Positions 21,415 through 23,827 of a DNA stretch of 32,717 bases are shown in pieces. The notes under the pieces were generated by a model, which was given only the letters and a program-made list of their open reading frames with translations, had not been told where the DNA came from and searched no databases. Within the stretch, counting starts at the first letter, position 1; every line of letters begins with the position of its first letter. The DNA is from Polyangium sp. 15x6 (GTDB taxonomy: Bacteria; Myxococcota_A; Polyangia; Polyangiales; Polyangiaceae): positions 1 through 32,717 of the forward strand of contig NZ_JASBQE010000123.1 in NCBI RefSeq assembly GCF_029960785.1, given 5' to 3'. Made by a program: the position numbers and the translations under genes.

Positions 21415-21428
21415 TCTTTGTACAATGT
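21415..21428. repeat. Operator-like repeat, copy 1 (TCTTTGTACAATGT)
   Basis: Identical to 21481-21494 and centred on TTGTACAA. It overlaps the upstream alternative start of the siroheme-type gene and so is well placed to repress it. Confidence 0.55.
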
Positions 21429-21480
21429 TTGATAATGTTATACAAATTGTGGCTTGACACCCGCCCCCAAAATTCATCAA

Positions 21481-21494
21481 TCTTTGTACAATGT
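21481..21494. repeat. Operator-like repeat, copy 2 (TCTTTGTACAATGT)
   Basis: Exact copy of 21415-21428, about 84 bases before the sigma-factor start. The centre-to-centre distance of 66 bases is not far from six helical turns, so both may face the same side of the DNA. Confidence 0.55.
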
Positions 21495-21577
21495 CGTCGT
21501 AACATGTTGACGTTTGTCTAGTGTTACATGCGCCAACGATCACTGCGTTGACGCGAGCGAGAGCAGGGAGGTCGGTC

Positions 21578-23827
21578 GTGGAAATGAGCGTGACGATGCC
21601 GGCGGCGACGATGGCAGAGACGCCCGAACGGATCCCGGGCGCCGCGTTCCGAGCTGCGGCAACCCTTCACCTTCAAAGAAATCCGCACCTCTCGCGCGAG
21701 TCTTTGGCGCGGGATCTGCGCGAGCGGCTGGCGCGGTGCGGCATCCGCTATCACCTGCGCACGCTGAAGCGGCAGCTCTCGGGCGCGGTCGCGACGGTGC
21801 CGCCCGAGGTCTCGCGCGTACTGCGCGACATGATCGCCGAGTCGGGAGGCGCGGACGCGATCACCGCGATCGAGCAGGCGCTCGTCGAGGCCGGGCTTTC
21901 GGGCGAGTCCGCGGCCACGACGCCCACGTACATCGCCTGCGAGCGCATGCTGCCGCTCGCCCAGCTCTGGCTCTATCTGCACCCCGAGCGATCGAAGCGC
22001 GCGCTCGCCCTCCGCCTGCGCGAGGAGCTCGAGCGGATCGGCATCCGCCTCAACGTCGACTCGCTCCAGAGCATCCTCGCCGGCAAGCAGCGGCTCGTGC
22101 GGCGCGAGATCCAGGACGCGCTCTTCGCGCTCCTGCGTCACGCCGGCGTGACCTCGGCGGCCGACGCCGAGGCGCGCATCGAGGCGATGTCCCGCGAGAT
22201 CCGCGGCGCGCAGGAGGGCCGGGCCTTCGAGAGCGCGCGAAAGATCCACGAGCTCGCGAAGGCCTGGAAGATCGAGCACAAGGAGCCCTCGTCCCGCAGG
22301 CTCGCGCTCCTGCTCAAGCAGCGGCTCGCCGAGCGAGGCATCGCGATCGGCCTGCCGCACGTGCAGAAGCTCGTCGACGGGCGCGCGCGCCGCGTGCGGC
22401 ACGCGATGGCGAGGGCGATCGAGTCGATCCTGCGCGGAGAAGCGTCACCCGCCGCGATCGAGGCGCCCGTCGCGAAGGACGGACAGCCCTCCGGCGTAGA
22501 GCTCGATCTCGCCTGGGTGAAGGCCGCGCCCATCGCCGAGCTCGCCCGCAAGCACGTCGCCGAGAACCCGGGCATGACGATGCGCAAGCTCGCGATCAAG
22601 CTCTCGCGCGAGGTCGAGGCGCTCGGCTACGCGACGAGCCCGAACACGATCCAGCCGATCCTTGGTGGTCACAAGAAAAAGACGCGCGGCTTCATCTACC
22701 GCGCCCTGCTCCACCTCGACGGCGCCGTTCCCACGCGCGTGCCCCACGAACACGTCTTCGGCGCGCCGCGCGGCGAGCGCTCGACCGAGCCTCCACCCTC
22801 CGTGGATCCACCTGCCGATTCCGAGACGAGCCCGCGGAGCCACCTCGCCCCAAAAGCGTCGAGCCCTGAAGCGGCGCCGCGCAAGCCGCGCCCGGAGAGC
22901 CTCGGCGCGAGCCTTTCGCAGTCGCCGTTCGGGGCCTACCGCGCGGCGATCCAGCGCTACCAGGCGCTCGATCGCGAGACCGAGCTCGAGCTCGCCCGGC
23001 GCTACCGGCGCGAGGGGGATCACGCGGCCGCGAACGCGCTCGTCGAGAGCCACCTGCAGTTCGTGGTGAGGGTGGCCTCGCAGTACCGAGGCTATGGCAT
23101 GCAGCTCGCCGACCTCGTGGAGGAGGGCAACCTGGGCCTGCTCGAAGCGGTCCGCCGCTTCGAGCCGTCGCGCAACCTCCGCTTCAAGACGTACGCGATC
23201 TACTGGATCCGCGCGTATGTCGTGGACCACCTGCTCCGCGAGTGGAGCATCGTCGGCGGCGGGACGGGGCCGCTCGTCTCGCGGACGTTCTTCCGGCTGC
23301 GGCGCGAGCGGGCGAAGCTCGAGATGCAGCTCGGCGAGGGCGACGCCTCCATCGACGCGCTGCTCGCGACCCGGTTCCAGACGACGGAGGACACGATCCG
23401 CTCGATGTCGCTGCGGGTCGCGGCGCGCGACACCTCGCTCGACGTGCGGACGCACCACGACGACGGTCCGACGCTGCTCGAGACGCTGCGTGATCCGTCG
23501 TCGGATCCGGAGCACCTCACGGCGAGCGCGGAGCGCGACGCGATCGTCCGCGGCGTGGTGGACCGCGTGTGGAAGGCGCTCGATTCACGCGAGCGGATCA
23601 TCGTCGAGGAGCGGCTGCTCTCCGGCGACGACGAGGTAAGCCTCGCGGATCTCGGCCGCCGCCTCGGCGTCTCGCGCGAGCGCGTGCGCCAGCTCGAAGC
23701 GCGCACGAAGTCGAAGCTCCGCAGCGCGTTCGAAGCCATTGCGCGTGAAGGCGGCGAGGCCGCCGAGGTCCCGCCTCCTGCGATGCAACCCGAGCCCGAG
23801 TCCGAGAGCGAAGTGCTCTGCGCCTGA
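21578..23827 (+). CDS. RpoH-like sigma factor with four N-terminal repeat modules
   Basis: 749 residues from GTG 21578, chosen for GGGAGG six bases upstream; the frame opens at 21521 without such a site. Residues about 445-749 are a group 3/RpoH-like sigma factor. Region 1.2 is YRAAIQRYQALDRETEL and region 2 is HLQFVVRVASQYRGYG plus LVEEGNLGLLEAVRRFE. The -10 recognition part is FKTYAIYWIRAYV, an RpoH-box-like SRTFFRLRRERAKL follows, and region 4 is LADLGRRLGVSRERVRQLEA. In front are four diverged modules of about 60 residues (about 27-86, 125-188, 220-287 and 317-382). Each fits a pattern like NPxxSxRxLAxxLxxxLxxxGI, then a second helix ending in LxG, then a basic VRR(E/A)-type helix. The modules look like HTH-type binding units, which is my inference. 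A Pro/Ser-rich linker (about 385-440) joins them to the sigma part. Confidence 0.88.
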   Translation: MEMSVTMPAATMAETPERIPGAAFRAAATLHLQRNPHLSRESLARDLRERLARCGIRYHLRTLKRQLSGAVATVPPEVSRVLRDMIAESGGADAITAIEQALVEAGLSGESAATTPTYIACERMLPLAQLWLYLHPERSKRALALRLREELERIGIRLNVDSLQSILAGKQRLVRREIQDALFALLRHAGVTSAADAEARIEAMSREIRGAQEGRAFESARKIHELAKAWKIEHKEPSSRRLALLLKQRLAERGIAIGLPHVQKLVDGRARRVRHAMARAIESILRGEASPAAIEAPVAKDGQPSGVELDLAWVKAAPIAELARKHVAENPGMTMRKLAIKLSREVEALGYATSPNTIQPILGGHKKKTRGFIYRALLHLDGAVPTRVPHEHVFGAPRGERSTEPPPSVDPPADSETSPRSHLAPKASSPEAAPRKPRPESLGASLSQSPFGAYRAAIQRYQALDRETELELARRYRREGDHAAANALVESHLQFVVRVASQYRGYGMQLADLVEEGNLGLLEAVRRFEPSRNLRFKTYAIYWIRAYVVDHLLREWSIVGGGTGPLVSRTFFRLRRERAKLEMQLGEGDASIDALLATRFQTTEDTIRSMSLRVAARDTSLDVRTHHDDGPTLLETLRDPSSDPEHLTASAERDAIVRGVVDRVWKALDSRERIIVEERLLSGDDEVSLADLGRRLGVSRERVRQLEARTKSKLRSAFEAIAREGGEAAEVPPPAMQPEPESESEVLCA

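Follow-up and report, generated by a model that had tools for sequence, protein, structure and literature searches.

How does a sigma factor choose its promoters when its sigma domain is preceded by some 440 additional residues? Sigma factors usually locate promoters through their regions 2 and 4, and extra specificity comes from separate activators. The question is raised by a gene of Polyangium sp. 15x6 found on a 32,717 nt stretch of DNA (contig NZ_JASBQE010000123.1, positions 1 to 32,717), hereafter called the window, in which it occupies positions 21578..23827 of the forward strand. We name it the array-sigma gene, as four homologous modules in fixed order precede an RpoH-type sigma domain in its product. 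Our preferred answer, held tentatively and with somewhat less than even confidence, is that this sigma factor carries its own DNA reader: the array of four helix-turn-helix (HTH)-type modules would bind TTTGT..GTT sites present upstream of the array-sigma gene and at a second locus. The genome of strain 15x6 is labeled G000; the other Polyangium species include G014, G056, G086 and G093, and G083 and G165 belong to other genera.

Four Modules Precede an RpoH-Type Sigma Domain

The modules are encoded on the + strand at 21620..21862 (R1, residues 13-93), 21920..22162 (R2, 113-193), 22217..22459 (R3, 212-292) and 22505..22744 (R4, 308-387). Pairwise local alignments of the four segments gave z values of 11.6, 4.9, 3.1, 13.2, 11.4 and 7.6 against 1000 shuffles each. 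The real score was never matched by a shuffle in five of the six segment pairs, and was matched in 11 of 1000 for R1-R4. In the window protein, a profile built from 28 modules detects four copies and no more (13-93, 113-193, 213-292 and 310-387) at 97-113 bits, scores that show boundaries and not significance since the window copies belong to the profile. The profile also finds four modules in each of the relatives listed (seven proteins scored), which match by construction, and additionally four negative-scoring stretches in the G083 protein. The conserved unit has ~75 residues and recurs with a pitch of ~99 residues. A sequence-only reading of the window had proposed four copies of a ~60-residue unit ahead of an RpoH-like sigma factor. 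The significant self-repeat in the shuffle test bears out the fourfold organization, and the proposed length is too short, the segments extending past both of its ends. In the own genome only these four modules match at E < 0.2 (150 of 597 candidates scored); five sub-threshold matches (E 0.2-0.7) were put down to chance.

Neither Pfam nor NCBIfam contains a family that scores meaningfully against the N-terminal ~440 residues. The view that no already named sigma N-terminal domain is involved thus holds for these two libraries. A pentatricopeptide match (PDB dPPR10, 2e-9) was rejected as a sum over designed repeats whose printed single matches have i-Evalues of at least 200, and those to KaiC, DUF4788 and other families were discarded as far under cut-off. 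A poorly conserved linker rich in P, S and R (22745..22930, +) connects the array to the sigma part.

Judged by family models and phylogeny, the sigma domain (22931..23740, +; residues ~450-719; regions 1.2, 2 and 4) is nearer to RpoH than to RpoD or RpoS. Its best NCBIfam model is TIGR02392 (RpoH), with 242.2 bits over residues 450-717 (equivalog cut-off 323.1), compared to 142.7 bits for RpoS and at most 112.4 for the RpoD-type models. The Pfam families Sigma70_r2 (66.1 bits, 2.4e-18) and Sigma70_r4 (37.6 bits, 1.5e-9) are both matched over cut-off and sigma region 1.2 under it (18.9 bits, cut-off 22). The earlier description of the C-terminal part as an RpoH-like sigma factor is confirmed. 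The score for the sigma-32 subfamily PRK06596 is slightly under cut-off (235.3 bits, cut-off 241); a plain paralogue at locus L002, 46% identical, passes with 248.4 bits. The best solved relative is 8hkc (2.9e-42), in a chain named RpoH. A tree of 32 sigma sequences places the domain on the RpoH-like side (support 100/99), together with the RpoH-like paralogues from the same genome. Long branches, the G083 sigma among them, prompted a warning by the program.

The window protein thus resembles RpoH (sigma-32) in its best-matching sigma models (242 bits) and in its side of the tree, and a second locus of the genome that bears the sites described below holds two hsp20 genes. It differs by failing both the equivalog (323 bits) and the subfamily (241) cut-offs, and by its size: RpoH is a compact protein of ~285 residues, whereas the window protein has 749, with ~440 extra residues that carry the four modules. 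The large sigma factor MzaA (NF041931), from the MZA anti-phage system, is likewise a sigma-70 protein with a long N-terminal part, but its best stretch of similarity to the window protein spans the MzaA sigma part alone (model positions 474-703).

The open reading frame yields 749 amino acids from GTG 21578 and 747 from ATG 21584; residues are numbered here on the 747-residue translation (P0001). GTG 21578, taken as the start in the sequence-only reading, is probably the true one because it is preceded by GGAGG and because, in the alignment of six species, G086 has AAG in place of ATG and keeps the GTG.

The Module Probably Has an HTH-Type Fold

Module R2 was modeled at a pLDDT of 90 (mean 89.9; pTM 0.76) from a 12-row alignment composed of the four modules of the window and of two named Polyangium loci. 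The model has helices at positions 9-22, 28-41, 48-55, 64-76 and 82-100. Foldseek found no significant match to it in the PDB (best E 0.83) or in BFVD (best 0.064). VIA-align, which compared only Foldseek's own matches and for which a Z below 8 can correspond to a common arrangement, placed lambda-repressor-like DNA-binding domains first, with EspR on top (Z 6.5, 88 residues aligned, 4.3 Å), followed by TP901-1 CI (Z 5.3, 71 aligned, 3.0 Å) and C.Esp1396I (Z 5.3, 72 aligned, 3.3 Å). All of the top 23 rows except AcrVIA6 are titled or otherwise known as DNA-binding regulators or POU domains. Folding of the N-terminus alone (residues 10-399) gave a pLDDT of 47, and only its helix pattern was used.

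On the basis of this model the module probably has an HTH-type, lambda-repressor-like fold. Its helix order and best structural neighbors agree with those of the Cro/C1 (XRE) HTH, as does an HTH_31 match in the three-module relative P0003 (3.4e-4, 21.3 bits, under the cut-off of 27); HTH_12 is weakly matched in four of 16 modules (best 0.0018). The array departs from the known Cro/C1 domains in that no family cut-off is passed and in that four units stand in tandem in a single chain before a sigma domain. No XRE-type model is among the 11 families listed for the 16 modules. The supposition that the repeats are HTH-like keeps its footing in the nearest folds and the weak HTH_31 and HTH_12 matches, and finds none in the family cut-offs or in Foldseek significance.

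Operator-Like Sites Occur at the Own Promoter and at an hsp20/ytfJ Locus

Four copies of the 14-bp site CTTTGTNYAANGTT lie upstream of the array-sigma gene. The first three are a (CTTTGTACAATGTT, 21416..21429, +), b (ATTTGTATAACATT, inverted, 21434..21447, -) and c (CTTTGTACAATGTC, 21482..21495, +). Site c is the first half of a pair whose second half, site d (GTTTGTCTAGTGTT, 21512..21525, +), begins 30 bp after it. A TTGACA is found between b and c (21454..21459, +) and is kept in five of the six species, G093 being the exception. A consensus scan detected no sigma-70 type promoter upstream of the gene. The sites look operator-like and not like -35/-10 elements, because like elements occur in both orientations. 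The segment between c and d (21495-21512) is occupied by a small hairpin, CGTCGTAACATGTTGACG, described as terminator-like by the scan.

Counterparts of the four sites align in the six species, several with changes; site b is degenerate in G014 and was excluded there from the leave-one-out profiles. Those profiles rank the held-out sites 1st, 4th, 4th and 5th among 65,408 window positions, with one non-site outscoring held-out d (14.5 vs 13.8). The four best scores of the region are 22-26 bits, obtained with a profile built on those same four sites; the highest fourth-best score in 500 shuffles is 9.8. Taken singly and with up to one mismatch, the site occurs six times in the own genome, two of them here. 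This is near chance, because the reversed-pattern control occurs five times. Exact single sites number 17 in the six Polyangium genomes, 15 of them at the array promoter and at the hsp20/ytfJ locus, as compared to three for the reversed control. One exact site of the own genome stands directly before a DUF4388 gene (L070 1501-1514); an exact counterpart is absent from the matches listed for the five other species.

The c-d pair with its 30-bp spacing is far more selective. Allowing up to three mismatches, it is found at two places in the 13.4 Mb of the own genome, both mismatch-free (control 0), with a pattern that was written after both loci were known and fits there by construction; what does not depend on the choice of pattern is that it is absent elsewhere and that the other five species have hsp20-side copies. 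The second pair (G000:C202:102548-102591; L069/L073) lies in the divergent intergenic region between a YtfJ/redoxin-like gene (YtfJ 1.7e-7) and two hsp20 genes, which match Pfam HSP20 at 1.3e-17 and 1e-17. It reads toward the hsp20 genes, whose start is 244-289 nt beyond the end of the pair in the six species. This neighborhood fits an RpoH-type sigma factor, as far as gene content can tell. A mismatch-free pair is present at both loci in five of six Polyangium species and at one locus in G093, where the pair of the array gene is intact and two changes affect the second element of the hsp20-side pair. G086 has one further match with three mismatches, and the reversed control gives two matches across the six genomes. 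None of the 177 non-Polyangium genomes of the order has a mismatch-free pair; 45 of them have a total of 70 matches with one to three mismatches (a single one with one mismatch), and the reversed control has 74. A second conserved block, TCTTGACAGCGGCCGACCCATGTAGAGATTGCA (L069 1300-1420), is found upstream of the hsp20 genes in the six Polyangium species, with one base different in G014, and is possibly the hsp20 promoter.

The fixed 30-bp spacing has a bipartite look, which invites an explanation by the sigma domain itself: the pair would be a -35/-10 promoter that it recognizes at the array-sigma gene and also at hsp20, and the array would serve another purpose. The RpoH type of the sigma and its hsp20 neighbors agree with this, as does the alteration of the second hsp20-side element in G093, a species that lost the sigma part (see below). 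However, both halves are one sequence, which recurs at a and, inverted, at b in the manner of an operator, 30 bp between equal elements is unlike a spacer of ~17 bp, and the G093 array-gene pair is intact despite the loss of the sigma. We regard this explanation as unlikely.

The Array Is a Separable and Conserved Unit

Three relatives indicate, by comparison of their genes, that the array is a unit separable from the sigma domain, joined to both RpoH-type and RpoD-type sigmas. G083, known from one contig of one incomplete genome, encodes an 856-residue protein with R1-R4 in the same order and an RpoD-type sigma part (360.9 bits to the RpoD model, cut-off 555; at most 122.5 to RpoH-type models). 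This sigma falls on the RpoD-like side of the tree (side support 100/99), its place inside being weak (85/68). Its modules pair with R1-R4 at scores of 189, 156, 111 and 182, the tightest contest being that of R3 (111) versus R2 (95). In G165 a 325-residue frame contains R1-R3 and no sigma (T1-R1 114, T2-R2 132, T3-R3 122; next best 79). By eye, this three-module gene (L058 6403-7377, -) lies between uvrA-like and response-regulator-like genes. In G093, the DNA matching window positions 22728-23827 (~1.1 kb) is missing, L022 9817-9854 being the corresponding stretch: this species keeps the four modules and lacks both linker and sigma part. No such sigma was found elsewhere in that genome at 1e-90, whereas orthologues give 1e-166 or lower (23 of 84 candidates scored).

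Among the five sigma-bearing species the dN/dS ratio is 0.10-0.31 for the modules, 0.11-0.26 for the sigma part and 0.34-0.90 for the inter-module linkers. The array-sigma linker has 0.37-0.97 in nine of ten species pairs and 2.77 in one pair with a dS of 0.03. As judged by these ratios, the modules are under purifying selection. Pairs with G093 give 0.25-0.43 for the modules, a rise that may reflect relaxed constraint. One could see the array as a lineage-specific addition that is being lost and has no strong role: its distribution is narrow, and G093 combines raised module dN/dS with the loss of both sigma part and TTGACA. We consider this very improbable, since the four modules have open frames and remain constrained in all six species, and since they are recognizable, in kept order, at 39% identity in another genus.

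That distribution was followed at three levels, with absences that are not firm, as in most genomes part of the first-look candidates was scored. Among 98 genomes of the family, a protein search with the N-terminal part retrieved seven, namely all six Polyangium (own included) and G083 (39% identity). The module profile matched 10 of 183 genomes in the order, eight of which were accepted (the six Polyangium, G083 and G165), and the phylum search matched eight of 377, with four accepted, all Polyangium. A pattern scan of genome contigs turned up Polyangium sp. y55x31 and P. fumosum as two relatives. Single-module matches were rejected by eye, and scored as absences, in G055 and G169 (order; weak partial matches, in other proteins or apparent wrong-strand frames) and in G055, G197, G446 and G463 (phylum; partial or apparently on the wrong strand); at the G463 locus no frame reached below 0.05 with the module profile. 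On these searches the array is narrowly distributed, with six Polyangium and two other genomes accepted in the order. The architecture of array plus sigma, first noticed in the window alone, is thus found again in further Polyangium and in G083. Concerning a phage or plasmid origin of the array, tblastn gave no match, and the best PHROGs match was 0.014, in one of 16 modules.

Candidate Readers of the Sites

In the reading that we prefer, each module would be a lambda-repressor-like HTH and the array would bind the TTTGT..GTT sites. This is the simplest link because HTH-type modules and sigma are part of one protein and the site is nearly confined to two loci. The array would bring (or hold) RNA polymerase with this sigma at its own promoter and at the hsp20/ytfJ region; the sigma domain would open the promoter, and the address would come mostly from the array. 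Since TTGACA sits between b and c in five of six species, binding would act on the own promoter. With a and b upstream and c and d downstream of this conserved sequence, the arrangement would suit autoregulation of either sign.

Several observations, besides the origin of the pair pattern mentioned above, weigh against binding by the array. Upstream of the RpoD-type fusion gene of G083 the motif profile performs no better than chance (equaled by 477 of 1000 shuffles), and the 10-mer TTTGTCTAGT common with G083 (3 of 1000 shuffles) is reversed there and had been noticed before testing. G165 has no good motif match either (best 4.5 bits in 330 nt). The motif is confined to one genus, so that a single event may account for its association with the array. 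The second pair is only ~45 nt from the start of the ytfJ-like gene, which makes the target gene uncertain. Finally, the module model resembles HTH folds to a middling degree (best Z 6.5; Foldseek E 0.83), the modules stay under every Pfam HTH cut-off, and among solved structures a single-stretch match below 0.001 is given by one alone, the DEPTOR DEP domain (9.4e-6 across 29 positions of the profile; matches span 9.4e-6 to 5.2e-5, the best being formally significant). DEP domains are winged helices that often touch proteins or membranes.

This last likeness, together with those to other winged helices, would permit protein contacts, and the array is N-terminal of the sigma in both fusion types. 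The array could then act as a gate that binds a protein or, as the sequence-only reading also considered, a ligand, and so keeps the sigma domain in check by self-inhibition or sensing. Such a role appears distinctly unlikely: modules occur in G165 without any sigma, the nearest folds of the module model are DNA-binding, and the linker that leads to the sigma, being long and weakly conserved, is unlike that of a fixed gate.

A further point against the array as reader comes from the neighborhood of the second locus. A gene coding for a CarH/LitR-like protein, with a MerR HTH and a B12-binding domain (L069 2123-3013, -; L163 8203-9180, -), adjoins the ytfJ-like gene at each of the six Polyangium loci. 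By eye, it is divergent from a phytoene-desaturase-like gene. A separate regulator, for which this protein is the named candidate, might read the TTTGT sites; the array-sigma gene and hsp20/ytfJ would then be its targets and the modules would bind something else. LitR/CarH-family sites are given as T(G/A)TACA-N12-TGTA(C/T)A in PMC9758184, and as tandem 11-bp repeats with TnnACA in PMC9304148. Their TGTACA is also present in sites a and c. In the window, sites a-b have the sequence TGTACA-N14-TATACA, which in G056 is TGTACA-N14-TGTACA; four of the five exact half-sites of the window are within the array-sigma promoter. However, the a-b half-sites are spaced by 14 and not by the 12 nucleotides of the family sites, TACA is absent from site d and from the second hsp20-side site, and exact TGTACA-type half-sites are lacking from the promoter in G086 and G093, two of the six species. 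Moreover, a half-site pair of this kind was not found in the 18 kb round the CarH-like gene and its phytoene-desaturase-like neighbor, an expected target. A separate regulator is on balance unlikely, if by no means negligible; on sequence grounds the CarH-like protein is a serious, not a better, candidate reader than the array.

Where the sequence-only reading had imagined a multi-site sequence reader, the repeated operator-like sites at the own promoter and at one further locus lend it circumstantial support. Binding of the modules to them would still have to be preferred over that of the CarH-like regulator encoded near the second locus.

Significance

A four-module array on two sigma classes is not described in the literature matches listed (titles and starts of abstracts) nor in the family libraries searched. 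What appears to be new is the tandem four-module array on sigma factors, RpoH-type sigmas and HTH modules each being already known. The full consequence of array binding, in which promoter choice of a sigma-70-family protein would be set mainly by an attached array of four HTH modules, with a self-regulating two-locus regulon and an array portable between sigma classes, is one we put forward as doubtful rather than probable. The system offers a defined site at two loci in six species, one of which lost the sigma half alone. If true, the array-sigma protein would be a natural sigma-activator fusion and a simple route to rewired promoter choice, and it would provide a template for programmable sigma factors.

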